A DNA stretch of 64,000 nt, from assembly GCA_026399025.1 (NCBI GenBank), contig JAPLRU010000049.1:62001-126000 (forward strand), written 5' to 3'. Shown piece by piece: positions 21,295-64,000 of the stretch (within the stretch, counting starts at the first letter, position 1; every line of letters begins with the position of its first letter). Below the pieces are notes generated by a model that saw only the letters and a list, made by a program, of their open reading frames with translations, made no database searches and was not told where the DNA came from. The translations under genes and the position numbers were made by a program. This DNA is from Methylobacter sp. Lineage in GTDB: Bacteria > Pseudomonadota > Gammaproteobacteria > Methylococcales > Methylomonadaceae.

Positions 21295-21560
21295 TAAAAG
21301 TCCGTCAGGTTGGGAAATCACGCTATGTTTATCGAATGCGCACAATAAGAAGCCGGTCATTTTAATTTGAACGGGCTTTTAATGCCAGATTTGCGTGGAA
21401 TTTATTGATTGTTGAGAAATTAAAAACGTACCCGGACGATTAAAAACCTATCGGGGCTTACCGCTTAGAGTGCCGAAACAAGCAACAGGAGCACGATAGT
21501 TTTTTCGAATCTTTTGAGCTTTTCGCCGGGCCTATTTTTTACCGGTCACCTAATCGGCTC

Positions 21561-26874: not shown

Positions 26875-28247
26875 GCCCGTCCACCCAGGAAAAAATATCC
26901 CCAGCCTTCGAGTCATTTCTAGCTGAAAGCGGTAATAACGATAAGCGGGATGCCATTGTTATTTACCGTTCAGCCAGCAATGACTTGCCACCTTTACGGG
27001 GTCGATTGAAAAGCCTAAAGGAAAAACTGGCTGATATTGCGGCTAGAGCTAACGCTCAATCCACAGCACATCAACAAGTACAAGCGCAATTATTTGAAAC
27101 CTATGAACGGGAAAGTCTTAGGCGCATGCCAAAATCTAAGCCGCAACATTTAGCGATGACCGGCATAGGCTCGGCGGCTTTTCCTGCTGCGAAGATGGAG
27201 GTGACGCGAGCTACCTTGCCTGCCTTGGCCAAACAACAGGATGTCGTCGCAATATTGCCCAATCAGAGGGTGTCTTTGATCGGCCCCAAGGAAATCAATT
27301 ATCAAGACTTGGCAAGCAGCGAAGCCAAGTCCGGTTATACCTGGGGACTGCAAGAATTAGGTGTCCCCGAATTATGGGCAACAACGCGCGGCGCCCAGAT
27401 CAATGTAGCGGTGCTGGATACAGGCGTATACGGCGAACATCCGGCCTTGAAAGGGCGGGTGAAAGATTTTGTGATGGTCGATCCTTTGGGTAGGCGCATC
27501 GAAACGAACATAAGCTTTGATGCGGGCCGTCATGGCACCCATGTTTGCGGCACTATCGCAGGCGGTAAAACAGCTAATGGCGTGTCTATTGGTGTAGCTC
27601 CAGAGGCTCAATTGTTAGTGGGTGCGGTTTTAGTAGGTGATGCCACTTTAATGACGATATTCGAAGGCCTTTCCTGGGCAATTGAAAAAGGCGCAGACAT
27701 CGTCAATATATCGTTGGGATTTCAATATTACGAACCTCAATTCGCATTGATCTTCGATATGCTGATTGAGCAATACGGCATCTTGCCCGTGGCCGCCATC
27801 GGTAATGAAAACCATGGCAGTACCAGTTCTCCTGGCAATGTCCGCAATGCATTTTCGGTAGGCGCCTTGGAAAAACTATCACCTAAACGCTTTGAAATTG
27901 CCTCTTTCAGCAGCGGTGCCAGTCTATTTTTTCCGGGCGAAGCGCCAATTCATAAACCTGATATAGTAGCTCCGGGCGTTCAGGTGTATTCCTGCATTCC
28001 GCCGGAAAAAAGATCGGGAGGCGATTTTGACTACACTTATATGGATGGAACCTCGATGGCTACGCCTCACATTGCGGGTGTTGTCGCTCTATTAATGTCG
28101 GCTTACCCGGATGTTGAACCTGAGCGTATAATCGAAGTGTTAAAAGAAACCGCTCGCCACCCGCAAGGCACGGCAAAACGCCCTGATAACCGTTGGGGAT
28201 ATGGCTTGATTCAGCCCTTAGAAGCGATGAAAGCCTTAGCATCATGA
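26871..28247 (+). CDS. Cytoplasmic subtilisin-like (S8) serine protease coupled to the NACHT ATPase
   Basis: A 458-residue protease with an apparently complete catalytic triad: Asp183 in AVLDTGVYGEH, His221 in GRHGTHVCGTIAGG and Ser395 in DGTSMATPHIAGV. The oxyanion Asn lies in AAIGNENHGST. Residues 1-150 form a propeptide-like region (SPAFESFLAESGNNDKRDAI ... VVAILPNQRVSLI). No signal peptide is present, so it should act in the cytoplasm. The ATG overlaps the NACHT stop by four bases, with AAGGA upstream. The likely role is an effector released or activated by the NACHT protein, degrading host or foreign proteins. The next gene resembles this propeptide. Confidence 0.9.
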   Translation: MSPSTQEKISPAFESFLAESGNNDKRDAIVIYRSASNDLPPLRGRLKSLKEKLADIAARANAQSTAHQQVQAQLFETYERESLRRMPKSKPQHLAMTGIGSAAFPAAKMEVTRATLPALAKQQDVVAILPNQRVSLIGPKEINYQDLASSEAKSGYTWGLQELGVPELWATTRGAQINVAVLDTGVYGEHPALKGRVKDFVMVDPLGRRIETNISFDAGRHGTHVCGTIAGGKTANGVSIGVAPEAQLLVGAVLVGDATLMTIFEGLSWAIEKGADIVNISLGFQYYEPQFALIFDMLIEQYGILPVAAIGNENHGSTSSPGNVRNAFSVGALEKLSPKRFEIASFSSGASLFFPGEAPIHKPDIVAPGVQVYSCIPPEKRSGGDFDYTYMDGTSMATPHIAGVVALLMSAYPDVEPERIIEVLKETARHPQGTAKRPDNRWGYGLIQPLEAMKALAS

Positions 28248-36123: not shown

Positions 36124-36472
36124 ACCCGAGACTTTGCTGTAAAGACCGCTTGAAGCGCCTGCTGTTGATGTTCGTTGATCCGCTTCTTGGTTTTCCCGCT
36201 TCCTTTAACAGCTTAATCTGGTATCTTTGTCCCCGGTTTAGCAGCTTGTAGCGACTCATGCACGGCCCGGTCTTGGTTTGTATCAACAAAAGCTGAAAAT
36301 CATAGCCGCCAGTCTTCCTCAGGTTCCGGTCATTAACGCTTACGATGTCGCTTCATTCGCTTTCGTGTCTTCGCAGTGAATAAAAACCGTCTAATCGTCC
36401 GTTAGCCCGCCTGTGGCTTATGAGATAAGCTAAACACCTGAATAACTAAATTGTTTTTTGGATCGTCACTTT
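36124..36472. other. Intergenic region before cysC
   Basis: No gene is supported. The only notable string is CTTACGATGTCGCTTCATTCGCTTTCGTGTCTTCGC-like sequence near 36340-36377, which vaguely recalls the CTTCGTG repeats but is not a clear copy. The cysC promoter is expected here. Confidence 0.3.
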
Positions 36473-37081
36473 ATGAAAAAAAGTTCAAATACCATCTGGC
36501 ATGAAGCCACCGTTACCCGCGCCCGCCGCGAACAATTAAACGGCCATCGCTCGGCGGTACTGTGGTTTACCGGACTTTCCGGAGTCGGTAAGTCGACGCT
36601 GGCCCATGCCGTGGAAGAAAACCTATACCTGCTCGGCTGCCGTACCTTTGTGCTTGACGGCGACAATATCCGCCACGGCTTATGCGCCGATCTGGGATTT
36701 TCCCTTGACGATCGGACCGAAAACATTCGCCGCATCGCCGAAGCCGCCAAACTGATGGTCGAATCGGGCGTCATCGCGCTGACCGCCTTTATCTCGCCTT
36801 TTCGTCAAGACCGGGAACGCGCGCGCAGCTTGTTTCCGCACGGCGATTTTATCGAGATTTTCTGCGATGCGCCGCTGGAAGTCTGCGAACAACGCGACGT
36901 CAAAGGACTTTACCGGCGCGCGCGGGCCGGTGAAGTGAAAGAATTTACCGGCATCTCCTCGCCTTACGAGCCGCCGTTAAATCCGGAACTCAGAATAGAC
37001 ACCGGCAACCTGCCGCTGGAGAAATGCGTGGAACAAGTGCTTGCGCTTTTGCAGGAACGCGGCATTGTGACCGGCAAATAA
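36473..37081 (+). CDS. cysC: Adenylylsulfate kinase
   Basis: CysC phosphorylates APS to PAPS, the sulfate donor for assimilation and for sulfotransferases. The 202-residue protein from the ATG at 36473 (an upstream TTG is not needed) has the P-loop [20 protein letters not shown], then [18 protein letters not shown] and the [17 protein letters not shown] segment. [20 protein letters not shown] completes the family set. It is separate from cysDN, unlike many genomes. It may supply PAPS to the sulfotransferases at 58-61 kb. Confidence 0.95.
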
Positions 37082-49924: not shown

Positions 49925-50048
49925 ACTTAAATCTCCGCCGACCTATTCGAAATAACGATGCGATACCGGCCGTGCAACCTGAAAATCAACAATCCTATAA
50001 AAATGGCGCCATCGACGTCCCAATCAGGATGTCGCTGACCTCGGCGCT

Positions 50049-50114
50049 TATAGAGTCTGGAATTAATATAGCGACGCATGGAACGATGTCGCTTTATTCA
50101 TTTCGGACCCTATA
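50049..50114. repeat. Very short relative of the TATAG...CTATA repeat
   Basis: A 66-bp copy: TATAGAGTCTGGAATTAATA at the left, then TAGCGACGCATGGAACG, GATGTCGCTTTATTC, and CCCTATA at the right. It keeps the outer parts (AATATAGCGAC and GTCGCTTTAT) but lacks the family A core, so it may be the minimal form into which the core was added. It lies 28 bp before rpiA. Confidence 0.6.
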
Positions 50115-50141
50115 ATTCTAGCTGACATTAAGGAGCAAACC

Positions 50142-50828
50142 ATGAATGATAAAGAACGTATTGCCCAACATGCCGCCCTGCAAGTCGCAGACGGGATGCT
50201 GGTTGGCCTGGGCACCGGCTCCACGGCAAATTGCTTTATTGAAGCGCTGGCCTGTCGTAGCCGTGAACAGGGACTTAAAGTAACCACGGTTTCCAGCTCG
50301 ACGGCGAGTGCGATTAAAGCGCAACAACTCGGCTTAACCGTGCTGGACTTCGAGCAGGTGAAGCATGTGGATATGTATGTCGATGGCGCTGATGAGGTAT
50401 CGCCGGAGTTAAACTTGCTGAAAGGCCAAGGCGCGGATTTGGTCCGCGAAAAACTGCTGGCAACCGCGAGTGAACAATTTTTAGTCTTGATTGAAGCGAA
50501 TAAGTTAGTTGAGCGTATCGGCGGGCGTTTTGCGATCCCCATTGAAGTCATGCCTTTTGCCTGGCAACTGGTCAAAAAGCAGTTGGAAGCAAACGGCGGG
50601 CTTGGCGATTTACGGCAAAATGCCAATCAAAACGGTTATGCGCTCAGCGCTTACGGCAGCTTGATATTGGATATGCGCTTTGATGAACGGATGGATGCCG
50701 GAACGCTCAACGACCTGTTAAACGGCATTCCCGGCATTGTTGAGCATGGCATTTTTTACCGCTTGGCGACGACGGTTTTGGTTGGGAAAGACGGCCAAGT
50801 ACAACAACGGCAAATCGGCAATCTGTAA
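50142..50828 (+). CDS. rpiA: Ribose-5-phosphate isomerase A
   Basis: RpiA interconverts ribose-5-phosphate and ribulose-5-phosphate in the pentose phosphate pathway and, in type I methanotrophs, the regeneration branch of the RuMP cycle. The 228-residue protein has the signatures VGLGTGSTANCFIEALACRS, VSSSTASAIKAQQLGL, then VDMYVDGADEVSPELNLLKG and KGQGADLVREKLLATAS. AAGGAG precedes the ATG. Confidence 0.97.
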   Translation: MNDKERIAQHAALQVADGMLVGLGTGSTANCFIEALACRSREQGLKVTTVSSSTASAIKAQQLGLTVLDFEQVKHVDMYVDGADEVSPELNLLKGQGADLVREKLLATASEQFLVLIEANKLVERIGGRFAIPIEVMPFAWQLVKKQLEANGGLGDLRQNANQNGYALSAYGSLILDMRFDERMDAGTLNDLLNGIPGIVEHGIFYRLATTVLVGKDGQVQQRQIGNL

Positions 50829-50850
50829 CGCCTCTTTTTGCAAAGAGGCG
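50829..50850 (+). terminator. Hairpin directly after rpiA
   Basis: A nine-pair stem CGCCTCTTT / AAAGAGGCG with a four-base loop, one base after the rpiA stop. There is no T tail on either strand. It separates converging genes. Confidence 0.5.
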
Positions 50851-50867
50851 TACATGTCGAATATTTC

Positions 50868-51917
50868 TTAGCCCTCGTCGGCAACTACCGCGGCTTTGCG
50901 CTTCAGGTCCTTATTAAGCCGTTGCAGGCGTTTAATCATTTCTTTTTTCAGCTGTTCGCGGCCTATCGAATGCCTTAAACCGCTGCCGATTCCGGTGACT
51001 TGATCGGTAGAGCTGCGGGTTGAATAAAACACCAATGTCCCGTCTTTATAAGGCAGTCCTCCGGCAACGATATGGCTGGAATTATAAGAGTGTCCGACAT
51101 AAAACTGCCGGGCCAAAATAATACCGCCCGCGTCGCCGGTGACCATAATCCGGTGATTAAGAATAGGAGTGGGCCGGTCCTCGACGTTGCGATTCGCCCA
51201 GGTAAACTGTTCGACCGAATTGGCCGGTAATGCGGCGGGATAATTAAGCCAGGCTTGTTGTAATTCCGGAAAGTAGCGCGCCCAGGCTTTGCTGTTGACG
51301 GCGTCGTTACGCAATTCCGCCGCAGGGTCGGCATTGCCGCTGCCGCGATGGTAAGCGGCAATGCCGGACAAGCCGCTTTTCCGGTAAGCCTGTAAGCGTT
51401 GCACTAGAAATTCCCGGTATTTTTGGTTGGCGGCTTTTAATAGCGTTTTGTCATCGGCATCCTCCAAGCTATCGTCCAGCTTTTTCACGCTATCGAACTC
51501 CGATTTCGACAAGTTGAATTCGCTGCCCGGCTCGGCCTCCAAAAACGCCTTGGCTTCGTCGAGCTGTTTATCGGTAAAGGCGAATTTTTTGAAGCTATTA
51601 ACGTCGGCGTTATTGCTCAGCGATCCGGAAGCGATGATATTGCTTTCGCTGGAGCCAAGATTGCCGCGTTTGATGTAATCGACAATTTTCGGCAAAGCGA
51701 CCGGCAAGATCATCGCAACGCCGATAGCAAGTTCTTTCTGGCTGGTTTCGCTGACGTCGTAAGCAACGATTTCGCCGCGCTCAAGTTGAGCGATTTGTGC
51801 CGCGCCGATACCGAAGTTTTGCAGGGCTTGTTGCGGACTGGGGGCGTCTTCGGCATGGCTAGATAAACAGAATAAAGCAGCCAGTATTAGAAGTGGGATT
51901 GAGCGTTTGTTGAGCAT
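50868..51917 (-). CDS. Secreted protein, function unknown
   Basis: A 349-residue protein with a signal peptide (SIPLLILAALFCLSSHAEDA). The mature part is helical then mixed: VAMILPVALPKIVDYIKRGN is a hydrophobic stretch, a middle part is rich in Asp, Lys and Glu (LDDSLEDADDKTLLKAANQK), and later parts include YHRGSGNADPAAELRN and a basic C-terminus (REQLKKEMIKRLQRLNKDLK). I do not recognise the family. It appears to be monocistronic. Confidence 0.65.
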   Translation of the reverse strand: MLNKRSIPLLILAALFCLSSHAEDAPSPQQALQNFGIGAAQIAQLERGEIVAYDVSETSQKELAIGVAMILPVALPKIVDYIKRGNLGSSESNIIASGSLSNNADVNSFKKFAFTDKQLDEAKAFLEAEPGSEFNLSKSEFDSVKKLDDSLEDADDKTLLKAANQKYREFLVQRLQAYRKSGLSGIAAYHRGSGNADPAAELRNDAVNSKAWARYFPELQQAWLNYPAALPANSVEQFTWANRNVEDRPTPILNHRIMVTGDAGGIILARQFYVGHSYNSSHIVAGGLPYKDGTLVFYSTRSSTDQVTGIGSGLRHSIGREQLKKEMIKRLQRLNKDLKRKAAVVADEG

Positions 51918-52552
51918 AAAGTTTCCTGTTTTATGAAAGGGTTAGGGTTTAATACTGTTGACTTCGATGTGATAAATGCTGGGTACGCGAGTTTTGTCCG
52001 CCCGTAGCAAAGCCGGACGGAGGCGCATCATTTAGCTAGCGACTCTTAAAGCTCAAACCGAACACTCAAATTCTTGAACGACACACGTTACGGTACCAAA
52101 GGAATGGTAAAAAGAGCAATCATAGGCCTAAATTTTCGGCAAATAATTATGCTCAATTACAAGCTGATAACATGACTGGAATAGTTGAAAAGTTTGGATT
52201 TGTTAATTGCTGACGATGAAAAGGATAGTTAGGGCTTTCAAAGTCGCTGTCGCAGTTAGTATGGCAAAATTTGATTGCCGCATTGATGGGGATTGGGAGT
52301 AGAACCAGATACAAGCTAGATAATTTGGAAAAACAGGAAGTATAAGCAAGCTTGAATTAGCAAAAGCTGGAAACCGATGCGGGTTACGGTTTTTTGTACC
52401 TGAAATTTAGGTAAGTGCTGCGGGTGTTTTTTCTATCGACTAAATATTTACAGTTGAACCTAAGCATTAAACAAATGCAGTTACAAACTGATTATATTTA
52501 TAATGAAAAGCGAACAATGAAATTATCAAACCTTGGTAAGTGCTTGATTTAC
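51918..52552. other. Long intergenic region before the tRNA cluster
   Basis: About 635 bp with no supported gene and AT-rich stretches. A small plus-strand frame here (52415-52633) runs into the tRNA-His sequence and is an artefact. TTGACTTCGATGTGATAAATG near 51958 looks loosely like a promoter start, but no gene follows on that strand. Confidence 0.35.
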
Positions 52553-52629
52553 TGGGGTGAACGACGGGGCTCGAACCCGCGACAACCGGAATCACAATCC
52601 GGGACTCTACCAACTGAGCTACGCTCACC
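52553..52629 (-). tRNA. tRNA-His (GTG)
   Basis: The minus strand starts with G-1 followed by GTGAGCGTAGCTCAGTTGG, has the anticodon loop GGATTGTGATTCC (GTG), and ends GTTCACCCCA with an encoded CCA. The extra G at -1 pairs with C73, the hallmark of tRNA-His. Last gene of the three-tRNA operon. Confidence 0.95.
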
Positions 52630-52652
52630 ATAATATGGGGATTTTTTACGAA

Positions 52653-52729
52653 TGGTGCGCTTGGCAGGACTCGAACCTGCGACCCCCGGCTTAGAAGGCC
52701 GGTGCTCTATCCGGTTGAGCTACAAGCGC
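52653..52729 (-). tRNA. tRNA-Arg (TCT)
   Basis: The minus strand reads GCGCTTGTAGCTCAACCGGA, then GGCCTTCTAAGCC with anticodon TCT, then GGTTCGAGTCC and an encoded CCA after GCGCA. Middle gene of the operon, 23 bp before tRNA-His. Confidence 0.95.
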
Positions 52730-52734
52730 TAAAT

Positions 52735-52811
52735 TGGTCGGGGTAGAGAGATTCGAACTCCCGACATCCTGCTCCCAAAGCAGGCGCGCTACCAAACTGC
52801 GCTATACCCCG
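52735..52811 (-). tRNA. tRNA-Pro (TGG)
   Basis: The minus strand reads CGGGGTATAGCGCAGTTTGG, then CTGCTTTGGGAGCAG with anticodon TGG, then AGTTCGAATCTCT and an encoded CCA. First gene of the operon, 5 bp before tRNA-Arg. Confidence 0.95.
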
Positions 52812-52866
52812 ACAATCTCCTTTTAATGGCTTGCTAAGCTTTCTAACCACTCTTGAAGAGCTACCT

Positions 52867-52895
52867 ATGATAACGATGCTTTCTCATATCGTCAA
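52867..52895 (-). promoter_or_regulatory. Sigma70-type promoter of the tRNA operon
   Basis: On the minus strand TTGACG (52890-52895) and TATCAT (52867-52872) are separated by exactly 17 bp. The start of transcription would be near 52860, about 50 bp before tRNA-Pro. An AT-rich tract lies just upstream of the -35 box, as in UP elements of stable RNA promoters. Confidence 0.75.
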
Positions 52896-53565
52896 CAATT
52901 TTTTTAATATTTATAGCAAATTATTACAGAGCCTACACATTCAGTGTCCTCTTAAGCTGCTTTGGGAAATCTGCCCAGCGATCATAAGTGAATGGTACCG
53001 ATGTGATTAGCTAACTTTTTGAGGATGAACCCGGCGGTACAGGACGCTTATGAGTATAACTCCACGGATGGAGGGGGGAGAGTCTCGTCTGAAACAGCGA
53101 TTGAGAGTAATGCATAAGACCATTTATGCTATGGAAAAAACCGTAACGCCGCCGACGCATCCGACCGGCGAATCATTGGCGTTAAAATCGACCTTTCCTG
53201 AATAGTGCCCACATGCCGGGCAATTACGGCTTTTTTGTGATATATTGTGTGCAACATTAAGCACGCGAGAGTATTTTGGAGATACATTCAAAAATAAAAT
53301 CTCACGAATCTTTTAATACCAAGGCTTGCAAAACAGCAGTGTATAGAGCCACAGCCATTGTTATCAACCCTATTAATAATACTCTTGCATAATCGATCCA
53401 TTGACAAGAGATCCCAACAAACACCAGCATTCCCAAGACGCCAACATTACTGCGATCAATTTCCCTCTTTTTTTGCGCGTTTTTTATTTCATCCCCCTAC
53501 ACATTTTTCACCCAGCTGTAAGGCGTTTGTCGCAGCTACCTTTTATTTGAGAGACTCTAATTAAT
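52896..53565. other. Intergenic region upstream of rhlE
   Basis: About 670 bp with no supported gene. AACTCCACGGATGGAGGGGG near 53060 is a fragment resembling family A core strings. TGCCCACATGCCGGGCA near 53207-53223, followed by ATTACGGCTTTTTTG, is a terminator-like hairpin without an upstream gene. The long stretch before rhlE may be a leader of its mRNA, as in some cold-regulated helicases, but that is speculation. Confidence 0.35.
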
Positions 53566-54825
53566 ATGCCATTTACCACCCTCGGTTTATCTGATCCTTT
53601 GTTACGCGCCATTGCCGATGCCGGCTATACCACACCGTCCCCGATCCAGTCCCAAGCCATTCCCGCCGTTTTAGGCGGTCATGATGTTTTGGCGGCCGCA
53701 CAGACCGGAACCGGTAAAACGGCAGGCTTCACCTTGCCCATCCTGCACCGCTTATCGCAAAAAGCTTACGGCAATAACCGGCCGGTTAGGGTATTGATAT
53801 TGACGCCAACCCGAGAGCTCGCGGCGCAAATAGGCGAATCGGTAAACAAATACGGAGCGCATCTGCATCCCCGGTTAAAATCCGAAGTGGTTTTCGGAGG
53901 GGTGAAAATTAACCCGCAGATGATGCGATTAAGAGGCGGCGTCGATATTTTAGTGGCCACGCCCGGACGCTTGCTGGATTTGGTCAATCAAAACGCGGTC
54001 AAGCTCGACCAAGTGGAAACCCTGATTCTTGACGAAGCCGACCGTATGCTGGACATGGGCTTTATCCGGGATATTCGCAAAATCATCGCTTTACTGCCGA
54101 GAAAACGCCAAAACCTGCTATTCTCGGCGACCTTCTCAGAAGATATACGTAAGCTCACCACAGGACTTTTGGTTAATCCGATCAAAATCGAAGTCGCTCC
54201 GCGCAATACCGCAGCGGAACTGGTCGAGCAAGTCGCTTATCTGGTGAACAAAGCCAACAAAACCGAACTGCTTTGCCACTTGATCAAAGAAAATAACTGG
54301 CAACAAGTTTTAGTGTTCACCACCACCAAACACGGCGCCAACCGACTGACCGAAAAACTCAACAAAGTCGATATTAAAGCCGCCGCCATACACGGCAATA
54401 AAAGCCAAGGCGCCAGAACCAGTGCTTTGGCGGGCTTTAAAGCCGGTGAAATCAGAGTGCTGGTAGCGACCGATGTAGCGGCGCGCGGCATTGATATTAA
54501 TCTGTTGCCGCATGTGGTCAATTTTGAATTGCCCCGAGCGCCGGAAGATTATGTGCATAGAATCGGCCGGACCGGACGGGCGGGCGAGGAAGGCCAAGCC
54601 ATCTCGTTAGTCTCCCATGATGAATACAGTTTCTTACGCTTGGTTGAAAAGTTGATCGGCAAGGAAGTTAAACGCGAGCAAATTACAGGCTTTGAGGCCT
54701 CCGCCGTCGCACCGTCGATGCCCCCGGAACCGCCACGCGGTCCACGCCCCAACAGAAATTCAAATCAAGCCCGTAAACCCGGTGCTAATCAGTCCGGAAA
54801 TAAGCCTAGAGCAAGAAGCGCATAA
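53566..54825 (+). CDS. rhlE: DEAD-box RNA helicase RhlE
   Basis: A 419-residue helicase: Q-motif at [16 protein letters not shown], motif [16 protein letters not shown], then [20 protein letters not shown] (motif II), [14 protein letters not shown] (motif III) and [15 protein letters not shown] (motif VI). A Pro/Arg/Asn-rich tail follows ([19 protein letters not shown]), as in RhlE. It remodels RNA in ribosome assembly and decay. A terminator follows. Confidence 0.95.
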
Positions 54826-54831
54826 AGGGCT

Positions 54832-54867
54832 AGGTGACGGGTATTGTATGTACCCGTCACCTTTCTT
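54832..54867 (+). terminator. Terminator of rhlE
   Basis: A perfect 12-pair stem AGGTGACGGGTA / TACCCGTCACCT with a seven-base loop, 7 bp after the stop, followed by TTCTTAT. A convincing intrinsic terminator. Confidence 0.8.
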
Positions 54868-55214
54868 ATACCAGTGAGCACATGGTTTTTTACAACGTTT
54901 ACTGGTGATCAGTGGTTCAGATAAAACGTGGCGCAAAGCAGTTCCATACAGCAAATTTGACTATAGCTCACGATCCCAACTATCATAAATTTTTGTCGTC
55001 TTACCGGGTGCAATGAAATGCCGGAAAAATGGATATGCCGACCCTTGCGATGGCAATGAGATTAATCCAAGAAAAATTAATTTAACAATTTTTATTCGTG
55101 GCTCTTATTAGGATAACTCTGTCCGACAGATAGGCCGGCTATGATTTTTTAATATAAAAAATTTTATCGACCTAAACTTAGGTTAATAAAATTAGCTATC
55201 TAAGGATATTAAAT
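54868..55214. other. AT-rich intergenic region before the collagen-like gene
   Basis: No gene is seen. The last 100 bp are very AT-rich (TTTAATATAAAAAATTTTAT near 55147), and AAGGATATTAAAT precedes the ATG at 55215, giving a weak ribosome site. The promoter of the collagen cassette should be here. Confidence 0.4.
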
Positions 55215-56054
55215 ATGTCTCACTTAAAAGACAATCTAATAAAAAACAACGAAAAATCTAAACCGGTTGTTAAGTTAAACAAGGAAAAAATTAGCAGCCA
55301 AAAAACAGGTCTGTCCGCTTTGTTGCTGGCCGGCGTCGTTAGTTATAGCACTATGCTTTCTGACGCCAACGCTGCTTCACCGGTCCCTAAAATTTCTTGG
55401 CAAGGGCGCCTGATACAAAATGGTGTTGCTGTTGAGGGTAGCCGCATGATGACGTTCACTTTGTACGATGAACAAAATACGGCTCTTTGGCATGAAGTGC
55501 AGCACGTTAAAATTACCAATGGTATCTATTCCGTGTTATTGGGGGCAGTTAACCAACTTAATTTACCATTCGATAAACCCTACTATTTAGGAGTTTCTAT
55601 CAATGGTAGTGCTATATTGAGTCCTCTTCAGCCATTGGTCTCTAGCCCTTATGCAATGATAGCCGGCTCGCTCGCGGACGGCGCCATCACTACAACAAAA
55701 AAAATTGGAATTGAATGTGAAAATAACCAAATTTTAAAAAAATCGGCTGATGGTTGGGTTTGCGCCAGTCTTCCACCCGCGATGCTTACCGGCACTGCCG
55801 ATCCAACAAATGACATAGGCCAAGATGGCGATTTCTATTACCAAAGCACCAGCCAAATGCTCATTGGCCCAAAATCTAACGGTGTCTGGCCGGCAGGCGT
55901 GAGTTTGCAAGGCCCTAGAGGCCCTAAAGGTGCTGTAGGCCCTACAGGCCCTACAGGTCCTAAGGGGGCTACAGGCGCGACAGGGGCTACAGGCGCGACA
56001 GGTCCTAAAGGCCCTAAAGGCGCTAAAGGTGCTACAGGCCCCACTGGGCCTTGA
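55215..56054 (+). CDS. Secreted collagen-like (Gly-X-Y) protein
   Basis: A 279-residue protein. A long N-terminal leader (basic, then [20 protein letters not shown]) looks like a signal sequence. Residues about 58-150 form a beta-rich domain ([40 protein letters not shown]) often seen ahead of collagen repeats in bacterial surface proteins. Residues 233-279 are 15 perfect Gly-X-Y triplets plus Gly-Pro ([20 protein letters not shown]), and the stop follows at once. Thr and Lys fill most Y positions, possible glycosylation sites. It heads the cassette with a sulfotransferase and a collagen-galactosyltransferase-like enzyme. Confidence 0.88.
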
Positions 56055-56155
56055 GTGCTTGCGTTAAAGTTCCGCAGCTAAAAACGTTGTGATAATTTGA
56101 TCTCGGCTTGGATTAAAGTAATCCAGTGCAAAATTGCCGGAATGAAGAGGCTAAC

Positions 56156-58072
56156 ATGAAAAACAACCTGTTCTCAGCAGGCTATCAAAGGGAGCGAATG
56201 ACCGCTTATGCCTTGCAAACTCCAACACAGGCAAGTATCTTAAAGCCTCTTTGCTCTGTACTATTTTCTGTTAGTTTCCTAATGGTTAATTCCAGCCAAG
56301 CTTTTGCTTTTTCCATAAAGAATCAAGTCGTTGCAGCCGGTGGCGGCAGCGCTAAATTGGGCTCGAGTATTTTGACTGCCACAATCGGCCAAGCAGCGGT
56401 GGGTACAATGTCCGGCGGGGGATATGAACTCACTGCGGGTTTCTGGCCTGAGGCATCGCCAACGGCAAGTAGTGTCAATAACAATGCGGACGGTAGTGGT
56501 CAAACTCCCGCCGCTACCCCGGAAGCGGTGGTTACTTATGAAAATGGCACAGGAAATACCAGCACAACCATCCTCGTAGATGGCCAACCTGTGACCGTGG
56601 TTAAAACCGGTTCCATGACCATTACCGCTACGGCTCCGAATCAGAACCTGCTTGCTACCACTAATCCAGGAAGTAACAGCCCTTCCCTCGTGATCACCGC
56701 AAACCAAGCCGGTACTCAAGCTAGCGCAAGCCTGAAAAATGGCCGGACGACCCTCACACTTCAAGGCGGCAGCACCATCACTGTCCAGCCCGGCGCCGAT
56801 ACCCAAAGCGTGGAATTTGTTCTGCCGTCGGCTACCGATAACACCTCGGCCCAAATCATACTCAAGGTCGGCGGCTATACCTTGTTTGTTGCAGCCCAAC
56901 CACCACAGACAACGCAAGTCCGATTCAGCCTCGATGCGGTCATCGTCAAGGGCGTCAGCATCCCTCTGCCCAGTCCTAAGCAGGGAACGCTCAGCGTCAA
57001 GAGCGACAACGCCTGTGTGCCGATGGTGGCCGTGAATCATACGCCGGTGTCCGCCAGTGCAGCTAACACCCAGCTCAATGCCCTTCGTCAGGATGACTTA
57101 ATAAGCGTGGGCTTGCTCCAAGGCGAAGCGCTGCCGGGTGGGTGCAGCAATGTTCGGAGCAGCAAAAATGCAGCCGTCAAAGTGCTCGTTGGCGAAACTG
57201 CTGAATTTTCATTACAGGGTGAATTGCAGCGGATTCGCTTGGGTTCTGTCGGGCGTAAAGCCGGTGTGGTCGGCGATATGCTCGCATTGCCTAACATAGC
57301 AGGCATGACCGTGGATCAGCCCGGCCCGATTCTAAAAGACATCAGCACCCGAACAGGACTGGATGTGGAAACTACGTTGCTCAACGGATTGGAGCAACAC
57401 GGCCTTAAGCTAAGCGACGGCGCAACGCCGTTCGGCAGCCTGTATCTGACGATGGCAGAGCAGAACTTCAATGTCGAGCCCGTGGGTGTGATTGAAGTAC
57501 GCCCAAACCAGACCGGCCAGGAACTGCGCGCGCCGGGTAATGGGGATTTTGAGTTAAACGAAGGTCCTCTGAGTTTCCGTGTCGCGCCCACACTTAGAGA
57601 TCCGGCTGCTTTTACGCAATTCATCCGCGCCTCTTTGCAAGGCAGTGTCAAACAACAGGCTGACGGCACTTACCTAGTGATGTCGGCAGGTAAAATATTT
57701 GCCGAACAGGCCGGATATGAACTGCGTTTGCAGCAAACCCCGACAGGTTTTGGCACGGGGGCCGATGGCTATGTCACTTGGACTGACGCCAGCGGACGGC
57801 AGCAGACGCTATATCCGGTGGCGGCCGATTTTACCACCTTGGCGGCTGGAGTGAAGCAACTAGACAGTAAGGCCCAGGTGCGCGGAAATGCTAATGGAAG
57901 CTTGTCGCTGACGCTCAACGGAGAGCATTTCAAGCTGTTGCCGGATTATGAGCTGGTGGACCTTACAGAAAGCCCGAAAAACAAGGTTTGGTGGACGGGT
58001 GATGGTGCTCGCTTATTTGTGTATTATCCCGGTCTGAATAAGGCTCAGGGTTTTACGGTACAGTCGCCATGA
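56156..58072 (+). CDS. Large secreted protein of unknown function in the collagen cassette
   Basis: A 638-residue protein from the ATG at 56156 (AAGAGG just upstream; an earlier start is out of the homologous part). The signal peptide is long (LCSVLFSVSFLMVNSSQAFA, about residues 33-52). Just after it, IKNQVVAAGGGSAKLGSSIL and GTMSGGGYELTAGFWPEA resemble the GG-Y-L-GFW pattern of many surface proteins. A Thr/Gln/Ser-rich beta region (about 110-280) follows, then repeats of FECR-like fold are possible but unproven. It lies 100 bp after the collagen gene. Confidence 0.6.
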   Translation: MKNNLFSAGYQRERMTAYALQTPTQASILKPLCSVLFSVSFLMVNSSQAFAFSIKNQVVAAGGGSAKLGSSILTATIGQAAVGTMSGGGYELTAGFWPEASPTASSVNNNADGSGQTPAATPEAVVTYENGTGNTSTTILVDGQPVTVVKTGSMTITATAPNQNLLATTNPGSNSPSLVITANQAGTQASASLKNGRTTLTLQGGSTITVQPGADTQSVEFVLPSATDNTSAQIILKVGGYTLFVAAQPPQTTQVRFSLDAVIVKGVSIPLPSPKQGTLSVKSDNACVPMVAVNHTPVSASAANTQLNALRQDDLISVGLLQGEALPGGCSNVRSSKNAAVKVLVGETAEFSLQGELQRIRLGSVGRKAGVVGDMLALPNIAGMTVDQPGPILKDISTRTGLDVETTLLNGLEQHGLKLSDGATPFGSLYLTMAEQNFNVEPVGVIEVRPNQTGQELRAPGNGDFELNEGPLSFRVAPTLRDPAAFTQFIRASLQGSVKQQADGTYLVMSAGKIFAEQAGYELRLQQTPTGFGTGADGYVTWTDASGRQQTLYPVAADFTTLAAGVKQLDSKAQVRGNANGSLSLTLNGEHFKLLPDYELVDLTESPKNKVWWTGDGARLFVYYPGLNKAQGFTVQSP

Positions 58073-58171
58073 ATCCGTTTTTAAAACATGGCCGGTCAAC
58101 ATTTCGGCTGTTTACCCATAGCAACCCTGTCGCAACGTGCTTAGATCGGCGATTGGACGAGAAAAAGACGT

Positions 58172-58807
58172 ATGGCGATTGTCTCATTCAAGCACCATTT
58201 TATTTTCATCAAAACCCGAAAAACGGCCGGTACTTCCATCGAAGCACATCTAGCAAGTCAATGCGCCGACGAAGATATTGTGACGCCGCTGTATCCTCCC
58301 GTTGCAGGACATACGCCTCGCAATTATCAGAGCGAAGCGGAGGGTTCATTTTTCTACAATCACATGCCGGCTACCCGTATCCGGGAGCTTTGTCCCGAGG
58401 CCTTCTCAAGATCATTCCGGTTCTGCTTCGAGCGACATCCGGTAGATAAGTGCCTCTCGCATTTCGCGATGCTGCGCAACTCCCCGTTGCACCGCCAAGC
58501 AAAGCATCCGGCCACATGGGACGCCTATTTGGAGCGGGAATGTTTTCCAGTCGATACCGCCTTGTATGCTGATGAGCAAGGCACTCTGCTGGTCGATAAA
58601 ATTTATCGGTATGAAGAACTTGCTTCCTGTTTGGCGGATATTTCGGCAAGAACGGGTATGCCCTACGCGCCATTGTCTGTGCAAGAAAAATCAGGGTTTC
58701 GCTATGGACTACCCTCGTTTTCAGAGGTTATGGCCAGTGTTGAGCAGAGACGGCTGATCTTTGACGCCTTCTCATCAACGTTACGTTTCATTGATTATCC
58801 GTCATAG
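58172..58807 (+). CDS. Sulfotransferase-family protein
   Basis: A 211-residue protein with the PAPS-binding elements of sulfotransferases: FIFIKTRKTAGTSIEAHLAS (5'-phosphosulfate loop, about residues 10-29) and a later FCFERHPVDKCLSHFAML (3'-phosphate site, RxPxxKxxS-like). It is short but complete for the small heparan/dermatan-type bacterial enzymes. It lies between the large secreted protein and the fusion enzyme. PAPS would come from CysDN and CysC. The acceptor is unknown, perhaps glycans on the collagen-like protein. Confidence 0.82.
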   Translation: MAIVSFKHHFIFIKTRKTAGTSIEAHLASQCADEDIVTPLYPPVAGHTPRNYQSEAEGSFFYNHMPATRIRELCPEAFSRSFRFCFERHPVDKCLSHFAMLRNSPLHRQAKHPATWDAYLERECFPVDTALYADEQGTLLVDKIYRYEELASCLADISARTGMPYAPLSVQEKSGFRYGLPSFSEVMASVEQRRLIFDAFSSTLRFIDYPS

Positions 58808-58860
58808 GCAAGCCCCACGATGACAACCTCGCTAGCCGGAATAGGGCCAGGAAGCCCTGC

Positions 58861-61800
58861 GTGAAAACCATCGGTCTGTGCATGATCGTGAAGAACGAGG
58901 CGGCGCTGATTGTGCGCTGTTTAAATAGCGTACGCAGTCTTGTCGACTATGTGCTGATCTCCGATACCGGCTCAACCGACGGAACGCAAGATACGATTCG
59001 CGGCTGGTTGATGGATACAGGCATACCGGGAGCGGTGTTTGACGATCCGTGGGTCGATTTTGCCCATAACCGTAATATCATTCTGCATAGGCTACAAGGT
59101 ATCCCCAACATCGATTATTCGATGATGATGGATGCCGATGATCTTATAGAATATGAAGAAAATTTTAATCCGGCGCAATTCAAAACCGATCTTACTGCGG
59201 ACCACTACTTTGTATCTATCCGACTAAGCGATGTTTACTATGCACGAACTTTACTGTGCAGCACCCGCCACCCCTACCGCTATCGTGGGGTTTTACATGA
59301 ATATATCGAAGTACCCAATGAGCGCCTAACACCCGGCTCCATCGAATCGATTAAGATTATGGCCGGCACCGAAGGCGCCAGGAGCCGCGACCCGGAAAAA
59401 TATCAGCGGGACGCCGAGGTATTGGAAACAGCTTTATCGCACGAAACCGATCCGTTCCTTCGAGCCCGTTATCAATTCTACTTGGCTCAGAGTTACCGTG
59501 ACTGCGGCGAATCCGAAAAAGCATTAAAACATTACTTGGCGCGCTCGGAGCTTGGCTTCTGGCGGGAAGAAATTTATATCGGCCTGTACCAAGCAGCGCG
59601 ACTAAAGGATCAACTGGCTTATCCCGAACAGCAAGTGATCGACACCTATCTTCGGGCTGCCGATACGCTGCCGACGCGGGCGGAAGCCTTGCACGGCGCG
59701 AGCCGTTTTTGCAGGTTGCATGAACGCTATGAGGAAGGCTACCGAATTGCCAAGCGTGGTTTGGAGCTTTCGATTCCCGAAGACGGCCTGTTTATCGAAC
59801 GCTGGATCTATGAACAGGGATTACTGGATGAGTACGCCGTCAATGCTTATTGGTCGGGACATCATCAGGACTGTCTGGATGCTTGCCTGAAGATTCTGGT
59901 GACAGGCAAGCTTTCGGAGGAGGACGCACAGCGGATCGCCACGAATGCCAAGTTCGCGAGCGATAGACTGTCATCGCAATCCCAAGCTTCGGCAACACCT
60001 AGCAAGCCGCTACAACCTATAGCGCAGTGGCAACGGGGAAAGGCTGTCCCGCGTGTGCTGGTCGCGATTCTTGCAAAACAAAAAGAGCGGGTGCTGCCTT
60101 TTTATCTGAGTTGTATTGATGCGCTCGACTACCCGAAGTCATCAATCGTTCTCTACGTTCGCACCAATAACAATACCGACCGAACTGAGCCGATTCTCAG
60201 CAGTTGGTTAAAGCGAGTCGGCCATGCTTACGCCCATGTGGAATACGAAACCGCCGATGCGCCCGAACCGGTAGAGCAGTTCGGCGTCCATGAATGGAAT
60301 GCGATGCGCTTTCGGGTGCTCGCAGGCATCCGGCAAGACAGTTTACAGGCGACGCTGCGGCACAATTGTGATTTTTACTTCGCGGCCGATGTCGATAATT
60401 TTCTAAAACCGCATACCTTATGGTCGCTGCTGGCAACGAATCTCCCTATCGTGGCGCCGCTGCTGCGCTATCAGGACATGCAGCAGATGTACTCGAACTA
60501 CCATGAGCAAATTGACGCTCAAGGCTACTTTGTGAAGAGCGAAGCCTATCATTGGCTCCTTTTTCAGCATGTCAAGGGTTTGATCGAAGTCCCGGTGGTG
60601 CATTGCACTTATATGATCCGTCGCGATGTAATTTCTCGGCTGCGCTATGCCGATGGCGGCGACCGTCACGAATATGTGATCTTTTCCGACAGCGCCCGCC
60701 GGGCTGGAGTGCCGCAATACCTTGATAATCGCGATATTTACGGCTACCTAAGCCTGGATGAACAGACCGCCCCTTCGATTGAGTTATTAGGCGAGTCTGT
60801 CGGCATTGCTTCCAGAAAAGCCGATTTCACTGCGCAGCGAGTCAAACGAGATCGTGATGCTATTGTCGCTCCCCCCGTTTTTCTTCACGCCAGTTGGCGG
60901 ACCTCGAGTACTTGGATCTGGTCGAAGTTTCGCCAGTTGCCTGAGACACTGGCTTTCTACGAGCCATTCTCAATGTTCCTGCATCACATGACGCGTCAAC
61001 AAGCCGCCTCGTTCGCCAGCACTAGCTGGGCTTCCGGGCATTCCGCGACAGACCCGTATTACCTGGAATATCTGCCGCTGATCCGGCAATCGGGCGGCAT
61101 GAAACGGTTTCATCCCTCGATACCCTATAAATGGTTTTTCCCGTCACAGGGGCTGCGTGGCGCTTTGAGAACAGATGAGAAACGATATGTTGAGTTCTTA
61201 CTGAAAGAAGCGCGGCAGAGGGGGCGTCAGCCAGTCTTGGGTTTTTGTCGCTCTCTTGCTCGCGTCTGGCCGCTGAAATCGGCATTTGGCGGCTGTCACA
61301 TCATGCTTTATCGGAATTTATGGCTGCATTGGGCGTCGTATGTATCGCTAAGAAAGCGCAAAGAAGAATTTTTTTATGAAACCGTGGCGTTACTGACCAA
61401 CCGGAGCGACGACCCCTTCATGAACTATCTATGCCGCCGCTATCTGCCGCGCAGCGAACGCTTCCGAAAAGAAGCGAATGTTGAGCGCTGGATCGGCACT
61501 AATGACGGCTATAACGCGCTGCTCTCGCTGCCGGAGCATGAAGCTTTCGGGTTATTTATGGGCTTGCATCTCTATCTTTATCTGCACGCTTGGCAGACGG
61601 TAGATTTGGTGCTGGATACAACCAAACTGGCCCGTGAGCAAAGCTATCGGACGCATATCGAACATGCGTTATGGCAACGCACCGGCCTTATCTTGAGTTT
61701 CGCCGACGCGCAAGAGGGACAAGCGGCATCGGCTATGACTGCTAACGGAATCGACTGGAGCGAGATAGTCGAACTGAGCAACGCCGCTGTCGACATGCTA

Positions 61801-61920
61801 TCGCCTATTGCCGATAGAGATAGGCTGCTACAGATAGCCCAAACGATGGTTGACGCCGCAAGGGAGGAAGCGGAAGTGTCGTCACAGCTACACCCCCACT
61901 ATTTAAGGAATGACTCATGA
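58861..61920 (+). CDS. Giant fusion: GT2 + TPR-like + collagen-galactosyltransferase-like + sulfotransferase-like
   Basis: A 1019-residue protein starting at GTG (58861). Residues 1-180 are a GT2 glycosyltransferase (GLCMIVKNEAALIVRCLNSV; DAD at 91-93). Residues about 185-375 are helical and TPR-like. Residues about 396-635 resemble the N-terminal domain of animal collagen galactosyltransferases (COLGALT): VLVAILAKQKERVLPFYLSC, DVDN at 510-513, IVAPLLRYQDMQQMYSNYHE, VPVVHCTYMIRR and IYGYLSLDE. Residues about 673-960 are sulfotransferase-like (FLHASWRTSSTWIWSKFRQL at 674-693). The assignment of the third domain is from pattern memory. Stop overlaps the next ATG. Confidence 0.8.
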   Translation: MKTIGLCMIVKNEAALIVRCLNSVRSLVDYVLISDTGSTDGTQDTIRGWLMDTGIPGAVFDDPWVDFAHNRNIILHRLQGIPNIDYSMMMDADDLIEYEENFNPAQFKTDLTADHYFVSIRLSDVYYARTLLCSTRHPYRYRGVLHEYIEVPNERLTPGSIESIKIMAGTEGARSRDPEKYQRDAEVLETALSHETDPFLRARYQFYLAQSYRDCGESEKALKHYLARSELGFWREEIYIGLYQAARLKDQLAYPEQQVIDTYLRAADTLPTRAEALHGASRFCRLHERYEEGYRIAKRGLELSIPEDGLFIERWIYEQGLLDEYAVNAYWSGHHQDCLDACLKILVTGKLSEEDAQRIATNAKFASDRLSSQSQASATPSKPLQPIAQWQRGKAVPRVLVAILAKQKERVLPFYLSCIDALDYPKSSIVLYVRTNNNTDRTEPILSSWLKRVGHAYAHVEYETADAPEPVEQFGVHEWNAMRFRVLAGIRQDSLQATLRHNCDFYFAADVDNFLKPHTLWSLLATNLPIVAPLLRYQDMQQMYSNYHEQIDAQGYFVKSEAYHWLLFQHVKGLIEVPVVHCTYMIRRDVISRLRYADGGDRHEYVIFSDSARRAGVPQYLDNRDIYGYLSLDEQTAPSIELLGESVGIASRKADFTAQRVKRDRDAIVAPPVFLHASWRTSSTWIWSKFRQLPETLAFYEPFSMFLHHMTRQQAASFASTSWASGHSATDPYYLEYLPLIRQSGGMKRFHPSIPYKWFFPSQGLRGALRTDEKRYVEFLLKEARQRGRQPVLGFCRSLARVWPLKSAFGGCHIMLYRNLWLHWASYVSLRKRKEEFFYETVALLTNRSDDPFMNYLCRRYLPRSERFRKEANVERWIGTNDGYNALLSLPEHEAFGLFMGLHLYLYLHAWQTVDLVLDTTKLAREQSYRTHIEHALWQRTGLILSFADAQEGQAASAMTANGIDWSEIVELSNAAVDMLSPIADRDRLLQIAQTMVDAAREEAEVSSQLHPHYLRNDS

Positions 61921-62216
61921 ATAAAAAAATTATGATCATGGCACTGGCGGTACTACTTCCATTTACCGCAATGGCTGTTGGAAACGAAACCGGACATCAT
62001 CAATCGCAGCATGGCGAAAAAATAAAACAATTGACCAAGGAACTTAGTTTATCTACCGATCAAAAATCCCGGCTGGAAACTATTTTCCAGCAACACCGCG
62101 AAAAATTAAAAGCACTGCGCGAGGAAAACCATAAACTGATAGAAGGCGTTCTTACCAACGAACAAATGGCGAAATACAACGCGTTGAGAAAGGAACGGCA
62201 TCCGAAAAGGCAGTAG
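61917..62216 (+). CDS. Spy/CpxP-like periplasmic small protein
   Basis: A 99-residue protein: a signal peptide (IMIMALAVLLPFTAMAVG), a His-rich start of the mature chain (NETGHHQSQHGEKIKQL) and a helical body with LSTDQKSRLETIFQQHREKL and LIEGVLTNEQMAKYNALRKE. LTxxQ-like motifs and helix content resemble Spy/CpxP-type chaperones or metal-sensing proteins. Its ATG overlaps the stop of the giant fusion enzyme (ATGA), so it is translated with it. It may protect secreted products during folding. Confidence 0.65.
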   Translation: MNKKIMIMALAVLLPFTAMAVGNETGHHQSQHGEKIKQLTKELSLSTDQKSRLETIFQQHREKLKALREENHKLIEGVLTNEQMAKYNALRKERHPKRQ

Positions 62217-62353
62217 AAACATCACCGGATAGCATTGCCCCAGATGGGGAGCGCCGCACCTCAATCCGCAGTGACTCATGATAACGGGATGACTAAACCC
62301 CCATTAAATCTGTAAAATAGCCGTTTTTTCATTGTCTAGCCTCTTAAAACATA

Positions 62354-64000
62354 ATGCGCACTACTCAATTCCCACTTAATACCGTTAAAGAAACCCCGGC
62401 TGACGCTGAAATAGCCAGCCATCAATTGATGATCCGCGCAGGCCTGATCCGCAAACTGGCCGCCGGTCTTTATAGCTGGCTGCCGTTGGGACTTCGAGTC
62501 ATGCGTAAGGTCGAAAAAATCACGCGCGAGGAAATGGAAAAAACCGGCGCGCTGGAAGTGTTGATGCCCGGCCTGCAACCCGCCGAATTGTGGCAGGAAA
62601 CCGGACGCTGGGAACAATACGGCCCGGAACTGGCACGATTAAAAGACCGTCATGACCGCGATTTTTGCCTGGGACCGACGCACGAAGAAATTATTACCGA
62701 TCTGGCGCGCAACGAGATCAAAAGCTACAAGCAGCTGCCTATCACTTATTATCAAATTCAATCCAAATTTCGCGATGAAATCCGTCCCCGTTTCGGCGTG
62801 ATGCGTTCGCGCGAATTCATCATGAAAGACGCTTATTCATTCCATTTGGACCACGAATCGTTGCAAGTCACTTACGAGGCGATGTATCAAGCTTATACCA
62901 ACATTTTTAACCACTTGGGCTTAAAGTTTCGTGCGGTTATCGCCGATTCCGGTTCGATCGGCGGCGCGGTATCGCATGAATTTCATGTCTTGGCCGATTC
63001 CGGCGAAGATGCGATTGCGTTCTCGACCGACAGCGAATATGCGGCCAATGTTGAAAAGGCCGAAGCAGTGATGCCGGTCGGCTCGCGCGCTTCGGCTACA
63101 AAAGCGCTGACGCTGATCGATACGCCGAATCAACACAGCATCGAAGAAGTCTCCGGTTTTTTAAATATTCCCGCCACGCAATGCCTGAAAACGTTGATTG
63201 TTAGAGGCGAGGAAGACACGCTGGTGGCACTGCTGCTGAGAGGAGACCATAATCTTAACGAAATCAAAGCCATTAAAATCGACGGCATCGCCTCCCCGCT
63301 CCAATTCGCCGGCGACGAAGAAGTTAAGAGTGCCTGTAACTGCAAACCCGGCTCTATCGGCCCGATTGGCTTAAACATCAAAATCATTGCCGACCGTAGC
63401 GTGACGTTAATGTCCGATTTCGTTTGCGGCGCCAACCAGGACGGCAAACATTATCAAGGCGTCAACTGGGAACGCGATTTGCCTGTTCCCGATCACGTTG
63501 CCGACCTGCGCATGGTGGTTGACGGCGATCCCAGCCCGGACGGCAAAGGCCGCATCACCTTAGCTCGCGGTATTGAAGTCGGTCATATCTTCCAGCTGGG
63601 CACCAAATACAGCGAAGCGATGAAAGCCGGCGTGATCAACGAAGGCGGCAAGAATCAAATCATGACCATGGGCTGTTACGGTATAGGCATTTCCCGCGTG
63701 GTCGCCGCCGCGATCGAACAAAATCATGACGACAAAGGCATCATCTGGCCGGTCAATCTGGCGCCGTTCCAGGTCGCGCTTTGCCCGATGAACATGCACA
63801 AGTCCGAACGCCTGAAAGCGGCTTCGGAACAGTTGTACCAGGACTTGCTGGCGGCCGGAATCGATGTGTTATTCGATGACAGAAAAGTCCGCGCCGGATT
63901 TATGTTTTCGGATATGGAACTGATCGGCATCCCGCACTGCATCGTGGTTGGCGACCGCGGCCTGGATTCCGGCACGGTGGAATACAAAGCCAGAACGGCT
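62354..64000 (+). CDS. proS: Prolyl-tRNA synthetase, C-terminal end outside the window
   Basis: ProS charges tRNA-Pro. The frame from the ATG at 62354 is open to the window edge (549 codons of about 570 in the bacterial-type enzyme). Motif 1 is near [20 protein letters not shown]. Motif 2 contains [20 protein letters not shown]. The editing (INS) domain covers about residues 225-405 and motif 3 ([20 protein letters not shown]) comes after. The anticodon-binding domain begins near [20 protein letters not shown]. Confidence 0.96.

Follow-up and report, generated by a model that had tools for sequence, protein, structure and literature searches.

Five genes at 55215-62216 of a 64,000-nucleotide stretch of Methylobacter sp. 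DNA (contig JAPLRU010000049.1, positions 62,001 to 126,000; the whole stretch is called the window here) likely form a transferable cassette that makes a small collagen, secreted or at the surface, and a cytoplasmic enzyme dedicated to decorating it, which is our best explanation of the data. The central gene encodes a fusion of three modules, the second of which is homologous to the N-terminal domain (GalT-N) of the human collagen galactosyltransferase COLGALT1, and relatives of this enzyme lie beside collagen-like genes in several bacterial phyla. Glycosylation of the collagen by the cassette is likely from these homologies and associations. Sulfation of the glycan is plausible and moderately probable, mainly from motifs. 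All five genes are on the + strand in the open reading frame (ORF) list of the window, and their features are as follows, with the basis of each in brackets.

55215..56054, +, collagen-like protein, secreted-looking, 279 aa (ORF, PF01391; secretion read from the N-terminal sequence)
55911..56051, +, Gly-X-Y run, aa 233-279, at the extreme C-terminus (PF01391, triplet count)
56156..58072, +, large secreted-looking protein, 638 aa from ATG, or 648 aa from GTG at 56126 (ORF)
58172..58807, +, small sulfotransferase-like protein, 211 aa (ORF, Sulfotransfer_2 under cut-off)
58861..61920, +, three-part fusion enzyme, 1019 aa (ORF, Pfam, PDB profile search, predicted fold)
58861..60015, +, fusion module 1, family 2 glycosyltransferase (GT2) with helices like tetratricopeptide repeats (TPR), aa 1-385 (Pfam Glycos_transf_2, GmaR/SunS)
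59131-59139, +, module 1 motif D91-A-D93 (sequence)
60040..60762, +, fusion module 2, glycosyltransferase domain homologous to human COLGALT1 GalT-N, aa 394-634 (sequence and predicted fold)
60388-60396, +, module 2 motif D510-V-D512 (sequence)
60826..61920, +, fusion module 3, sulfotransferase-like domain, aa 656-1019 (motifs, relatives' profiles)
60898-60912, +, putative loop R680-T684 of module 3 for 3'-phosphoadenosine 5'-phosphosulfate (PAPS) (motif)
61312-61338, +, module 3 motif R818...S826 (motif)
61917..62216, +, small secreted-looking protein, 99 aa, weakly Spy/CpxP-like, overlapping the fusion stop codon (ORF)

A preliminary description of this DNA, made from its letters, had seen here a cassette that makes and decorates a bacterial collagen, with five genes on one strand separated by short gaps or overlaps. 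The gene arrangement is confirmed: the intergenic gaps are 101, 99 and 53 bp, the first being 71 bp if counted to the GTG, and are followed by one 4-bp overlap. Its secreted Gly-X-Y protein likewise stands, with a PF01391 match of 31.4 bits that passes the cut-off of 27.2; this ORF is the only one of at least 60 aa in the window with at least eight triplets, and a scan of the 5.23-Mb genome at E<=0.01 gave no PF01391 match besides its gene. The Spy-like protein proved a weaker call, because the 99-aa product matches the CpxP family (PRK12750.1) at E 1.1e-7 with only 32 of the 148 bits of the cut-off, and LTXXQ at 17.7 bits where 24.3 are needed. Profile scans gave no family match over cut-off for the large secreted-looking protein.

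The first two modules of the fusion carry the case for glycosylation. Module 1 is GT2 by Pfam, and its nearest solved sequences in a PDB profile search are GmaR (E 7.2e-9) and SunS, the latter also being the nearest single-domain fold to its predicted structure (Z 22.3, root-mean-square deviation (rmsd) 2.7, 271 residues aligned). It combines a GT2 fold, a DXD motif and a helical/TPR extension, the features by which peptide-directed GT2 enzymes were judged. Module 2 (aa 394-633) matches human COLGALT1 at E 8e-30 and LH3 at 3.4e-12, both ahead of all other PDB entries, and a second sequence search returned COLGALT1 at E 1.3e-30. Its predicted fold, confident with blocks mostly above 85 in predicted local distance difference test (pLDDT) score, agrees (Foldseek E 5e-20; Z 32.1, rmsd 2.6, 265 aligned; LH3 next). 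Of 48 positions that do not vary across 27 bacterial rows (that of the window among them), 32 are identical in human COLGALT1, compared with 47 of the 190 other aligned positions. Thus the window fusion contains a GalT-N domain. Pfam found no GT25 match in it, that is, nothing corresponding to the GalT-C domain of COLGALT with its EDD motif, and because it is without this catalytic domain the enzyme is not classed as a COLGALT. A tree of 48 middle domains and two human rows gave human branches of 7.2 and ~10, too long to place, and therefore no conclusion on the direction of transfer is drawn.

Whether module 2 is itself an enzyme bears on how the fusion would work. Human GalT-N is described as catalytically inactive or dormant, with a scaffold role, in a 2026 perspective that numbers the domain motif differently (PMC13382579), so module 2 might likewise serve only to bind the collagen chain, leaving catalysis to the GT2-TPR module. 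We regard this as unlikely. The D510/D512 pair is common to bacterial module 2 and human COLGALT1, and the first DXD motif of the human enzyme (166-168), which we infer from the chain numbering to be the motif aligned to D510/D512, is essential for activity according to the mutagenesis reported in PMC3244457. Bacterial module 2 forms keep D510, D512 and N513, together with invariant residues that are changed in human COLGALT1 (e.g., R434, N436, N437, H477, E478 and N480). Many of them stand alone as whole single-domain proteins of ~240-330 aa. To judge from these invariant residues and from the many stand-alone forms, bacterial module 2 is probably catalytically active.

To place the enzyme in its genomic setting, 43 loci with the module 2 domain were taken from genome contigs; they were picked by two short peptide patterns and are a sample of the family core. 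Their taxonomic spread covers Pseudomonadota (20), Bacillota (14), Chlamydiota or Dependentiae-type bacteria (8) and Actinomycetota (1). In 18 loci a GT2-TPR module precedes the domain within one fusion protein; the other 25 have it unfused. Collagen ORFs, called by a rule of at least eight triplets that scored 0 of 215 shuffled loci as positive, occur in 21 of the 43 loci (13/18 fused and 8/25 not fused), and all ten partners scanned out of these 21 pass Pfam. At most 3.9 such loci are expected from genome-wide collagen density, with Pfam matches per genome taken as an upper bound (nominal P 1e-14, uncorrected for kinship, with seven of the 43 loci from Mesorhizobium).

Co-occurrence at the genome level points the same way. 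Collagen is present in 41 of the 43 genomes with the module 2 domain, the two without being those of L072 and L082 (L and G numbers are our handles for loci and genomes), compared with 105 of 299 background genomes, all from the window's phylum while 23 of the 43 survey genomes are from other phyla, and with 58 of 200 relatives. Within Pseudomonadota alone, 19 of 20 module 2 genomes hold collagen. Among the 200 relatives, 16 were counted as having the GT2-TPR module and 15 of them hold collagen, as against 43 of the remaining 184; 20 genomes had matched, and G034 (a fragment, no collagen) and G150, G175 and G188 (third module only) were excluded, with the count becoming 15/17 if G034 is added. 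The preliminary description had proposed checking whether collagen gene and fusion enzyme co-occur in related genomes, and had named an enzyme common without a collagen-like partner as evidence against the cassette; what emerges is an enzyme domain, module 2, whose host genomes nearly always encode collagen. The proposal of a cassette that makes and decorates a collagen is thus supported, and the COLGALT1 homology strengthens it.

The glycosyltransferases could instead serve surface polysaccharide synthesis or act on a different protein, such as the large secreted neighbour, with collagen as merely a frequent neighbour. Several observations weigh against the cassette reading, and some of them would fit such an explanation. 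No collagen ORF was found in the stretches of 22 of the 43 loci, which includes 17 of the 25 with a non-fused module 2 domain. In three of the five fused loci without a collagen ORF (L058, L059 and L095) the view is limited by a contig end; the other two, L068 and L072, are not explained by very short contigs: L068 has no collagen over 3.2 kb upstream (to the contig end) or downstream to 27 kb, and L072 has none in 20.7 kb and no collagen match in its whole genome. No collagen match was found in the L082 genome either. Seven viral contigs (L045-L051) encode a standalone COLGALT1-N-like glycosyltransferase of 281 aa at ~41% identity, and the stretches examined contain no collagen gene; phage records gave no module 2 relative. 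Of the 16 GT2-TPR relatives, eight have a collagen run in the flanking sequence retrieved (L036, with runs of 7 and 8, included) and the other eight have none there, some of them on short contigs. Moreover, the whole fusion was found only in this genome and G010 among 200 genomes, the module 2 domain only in these two among 301, and the window's own Gly-X-Y run is short, at ~15-16 triplets ending the protein. Module 3 relatives in L037 and L041 lie in loci that, from a reading of their sequences, resemble polysaccharide loci. Even so, a polysaccharide or another protein as the target is very unlikely: co-occurrence with collagen is nearly complete and adjacency far exceeds expectation, the closest structures to module 2 are the collagen-modifying COLGALT1 and LH3, and separately encoded GT2-TPR proteins also adjoin collagens (L107, L108).

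The partner collagens themselves suggest the acceptor residue of the proposed cassette. Thr is the commonest Y residue in all 36 collagen ORFs counted, the window's included; its share of Y is 95-100% in ten alphaproteobacterial loci, 78% in L069 and 35-38% in L063 and L070. Thr in Y is common among bacterial collagens anyway, at 48.3% in Gram-positives and 31.6% overall (PMC8968730). In the window, Thr fills Y in 8 and Lys in 5 of the 15 triplets counted. Lysine or hydroxylysine was considered as the acceptor and rejected: Lys in Y numbers 0 or 1 outside Methylobacter (5/15 in the window and 3/21 in L054). Because collagens beside the same enzyme elsewhere are almost without Lys in Y, Thr is preferred, and composition makes Thr in Y the probable acceptor. 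The longest such run was seen in a Mesorhizobium ORF of 2173 aa (L055, 454-6975), in which 582 consecutive triplets have Thr in 99% of Y positions.

What follows the two shared modules varies among homologues. In Mesorhizobium (seven genome loci and four plasmid records) the same two modules are followed by GT25, which was identified by Pfam in plasmid copies L052 and L053 only and judged by eye in the seven genome copies, of which L055 is shorter. L052 is 53% identical to residues 1-634 of the window fusion. Residues 404-804 of the L053 enzyme are colinear with human COLGALT1 chain 11-428 (E 1.1e-41), and its GT25 part alone matches COLGALT1 at E 2.1e-5 and keeps an FEDD motif. The Mesorhizobium enzyme gene is divergent from the adjoining collagen gene, whose longest runs span 41-582 triplets (L055, L057 and L061 seen in full), with 99 in L053. 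L058, from another proteobacterial metagenome-assembled genome (MAG), carries the same two modules and then Sulfotransfer_1, over cut-off at E 3.1e-8. Because BLAST at 1e-4 found no similarity between the window's module 3 and this sulfotransferase, the two sulfotransferase fusions look independent. L064 ends in a GT1-like part, under cut-off, seven fused homologues (L063, L066 and L068-L072) stop after module 2, and L095 is truncated where its contig stops. We read the third module as an interchangeable last step on a shared core that would be directed at collagen. Other ends also occur on GT2-TPR proteins without module 2 (L023 9101-11092, L031 3107-4831 and L036 9099-11000), namely an FkbM methyltransferase, a Methyltransf_11 or a second GT2; these genes are near collagen-like genes, with short runs only in L036.

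Module 3 of the window enzyme is a putative sulfotransferase. Its relatives, with matches in 9 of 301 same-order genomes (the window's own and G010 included), align in nine rows that share an R-x-x-S-T loop, R680-T-S-S-T684 in the window, and an R-x7-S motif. We take these to be the 5' and 3' phosphate binding motifs of PAPS sulfotransferases. The putative PAPS residues R680, S683, T684, R818 and S826 are invariant in all nine rows, and four of the nine members weakly match Sulfotransfer_3 (best 9.1e-5; 23.2 and 12.8 bits where shown, cut-off 27). No relative of module 3 turned up in the viral-contig scan. The preliminary description had called the 211-aa protein a PAPS-type sulfotransferase, which is more than its Sulfotransfer_2 (PF03567) match of 20.4 bits against a cut-off of 22 conveys. 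It had also called the large enzyme a glycosyltransferase/sulfotransferase fusion, of which the glycosyltransferase half is borne out by Pfam and the sulfotransferase half stays a matter of motifs, the C-terminus having no Pfam sulfotransferase match at E<=1. As a result, of the glycosylation and sulfation proposed there, sulfation is the weaker half.

Alternatively, the cassette may glycosylate the collagen without sulfating the glycan, module 3 and the 211-aa protein being either inactive as sulfotransferases or active on another target. Besides the missing Pfam match, profile searches of module 3 against the PDB found no sulfotransferase, and its model has a pLDDT of 42.1 (from 2 sequences), is also of low confidence within the full model and offers no usable fold. 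Moreover, of the 18 fused homologues, the seven of Mesorhizobium end in the GT25-like part, L064 in the GT1-like part and seven others directly after module 2. An unsulfated glycan is nevertheless less probable than a sulfated one, and on balance fairly unlikely, given the invariance of the putative PAPS residues and the clear sulfotransferase at the same place in another lineage, in a seemingly independent fusion. Together with the relatives' weak profile matches, these are the basis on which we favour sulfation. PAPS could be supplied from within the window, which, as had been pointed out earlier, contains cysDN and a separate cysC:

18320-19945, -, cysN, ATP sulfurylase, giving adenosine 5'-phosphosulfate (APS) for PAPS (profile match)
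20386-21360, -, cysD, ATP sulfurylase, giving APS for PAPS (profile match)
36458-37081, +, cysC, APS kinase, PAPS supply (APS_kinase E 4.6e-66)

These are common, ordinary housekeeping genes, and their presence says little on sulfation.

Mobility of the cassette is suggested by a related genome. When window positions 50000-64000 were compared with 19 kb of Candidatus Methylobacter oryzae, DNA similarity of 85-90% extended over 54988-62226, with nothing outside this interval. The gene to the left of the block (rhlE) has its best match in Candidatus M. oryzae on another contig, and the large secreted-looking protein has a 78% identical copy in the related block. Among the same-genus genomes searched, the fusion occurs only in G010. 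The five genes are found together in two different surroundings, and the view that they are a functional unit, including both secreted proteins, is therefore supported. We read the block as a moving or transferable unit from this pattern of DNA similarity. Its borders share no exact 9-16-base stretch, direct or inverted, between 54801-55020 and 62191-62380, and no tRNA lies at them (the nearest is at 52553-52811). A look at the short rhlE flanks in 13 relatives did not find proS and so revealed no empty site. Just ahead of the conserved block are a promoter-like site (54957-54986) and, after the upstream helicase gene, a terminator-like hairpin (54832-54862), both from scans that are overall at chance level.

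From these data we infer a course of events in which modification precedes export. The GT2-TPR module would bind the unfolded Gly-X-Y chain and attach a first sugar to hydroxyl side chains, most likely those of Thr in the Y position. Module 2, the relative of the COLGALT1 N-terminal domain, would extend the glycan or also attach a sugar. Module 3 would cap the glycan, here probably with sulfate taken from PAPS, and the separate 211-aa product may act as a further sulfotransferase. The collagen-like protein would then be exported via its signal peptide. What the data establish is the gene block, the homologies of its domains, the adjacency to collagen genes and genomic co-occurrence with them across phyla, and the exchange of the third module; the reactions, their order, the acceptor residue, the sugar and the sulfation are all proposals of this scheme.

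Known systems resemble parts of this arrangement. Human COLGALT1/GLT25D1 (PDB 9evj, 9u7j and 8zgc) shares the GalT-N homology with module 2, and the Mesorhizobium relative aligns with GalT-N and part of GalT-C, in order. The window enzyme differs in having no GalT-C/GT25 and in carrying a GT2-TPR module ahead and a sulfotransferase-like module behind; the partner collagens of the bacterial enzymes are, in addition, Thr-rich. LH3 (chain 269-492) and Mimivirus R699 (chain 328-457) each have one domain related to module 2. LH3 also has a hydroxylase domain, for which the window fusion gave no match; R699 glucosylates galactosylhydroxylysine (PMC9546862). The closest experimental precedent is SgtA of Clostridioides difficile. 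Its gene lies directly upstream of bclA3, and in vitro the enzyme attaches beta-O-GlcNAc to Thr in the collagen repeat (PMC7157674). The likeness, drawn from the description and not from sequence, is that of a glycosyltransferase gene adjoining a collagen-like gene. No fused second glycosyltransferase or sulfotransferase is described for SgtA in the accessible text, where the authors report having found no glycan-extending enzyme (PMC7157674).

SunS/ThuS and GmaR share the GT2 fold of module 1, and their acceptors are peptide cysteine and flagellin, respectively. The window module 1 differs in its proposed acceptor and in being fused to a COLGALT1-like domain. A literature search covering few subscription journals found no paper connecting collagen-like proteins of bacteria to COLGALT homologues or to sulfotransferases.

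Outside animals, giant viruses and a few spore-forming bacteria, little is known of collagen glycosylation. A bacterial domain homologous to one of an animal collagen galactosyltransferase, encoded next to collagen genes in several phyla, would offer testable enzymes for producing glycosylated, perhaps sulfated, recombinant collagens. Bacterial module 2 would also raise the question of what the dormant animal domain did in the past, and the interchangeable third module is a natural experiment on collagen decoration. A broader reading, which we hold only tentatively, is that a modular collagen-glycan synthase is widespread in bacteria, with two collagen-directed glycosyltransferase modules and an interchangeable third (GT25, GT1-like or sulfotransferase). 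Module 2 would then be the catalytically live counterpart of a domain lying dormant in animal COLGALT1, Mesorhizobium would have a complete COLGALT1-like enzyme acting on Gly-X-Thr collagen, and Methylobacter would make sulfated collagen glycans.

Several genes recur near the enzyme in the surveyed loci. Type I secretion genes (HlyD and a peptidase-domain ABC transporter, as annotated) lie at 1145-4869 of L053, with similar-looking secretion ORFs, named by reading, in L071 (3017-5221) and L095 (74-3725); they perhaps encode an exporter of the collagen. Another recurrent product in four alphaproteobacterial groups is a ~260-340-aa secreted-looking protein (L055-L057, L059-L061, L065, L066, L071 and L095), of which the copy in L071 matched nothing in Pfam. 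A Hint domain is present in the collagen-like protein that a Caulobacterales MAG encodes (L069, 1-1077). In L074 and L075 the standalone enzyme has a signal-like N-terminus, and L074 has six consecutive collagen-like ORFs. Elsewhere in the window, 26955-28247 encodes a subtilisin-like serine protease with mycosin as its best profile, under that profile's cut-off.

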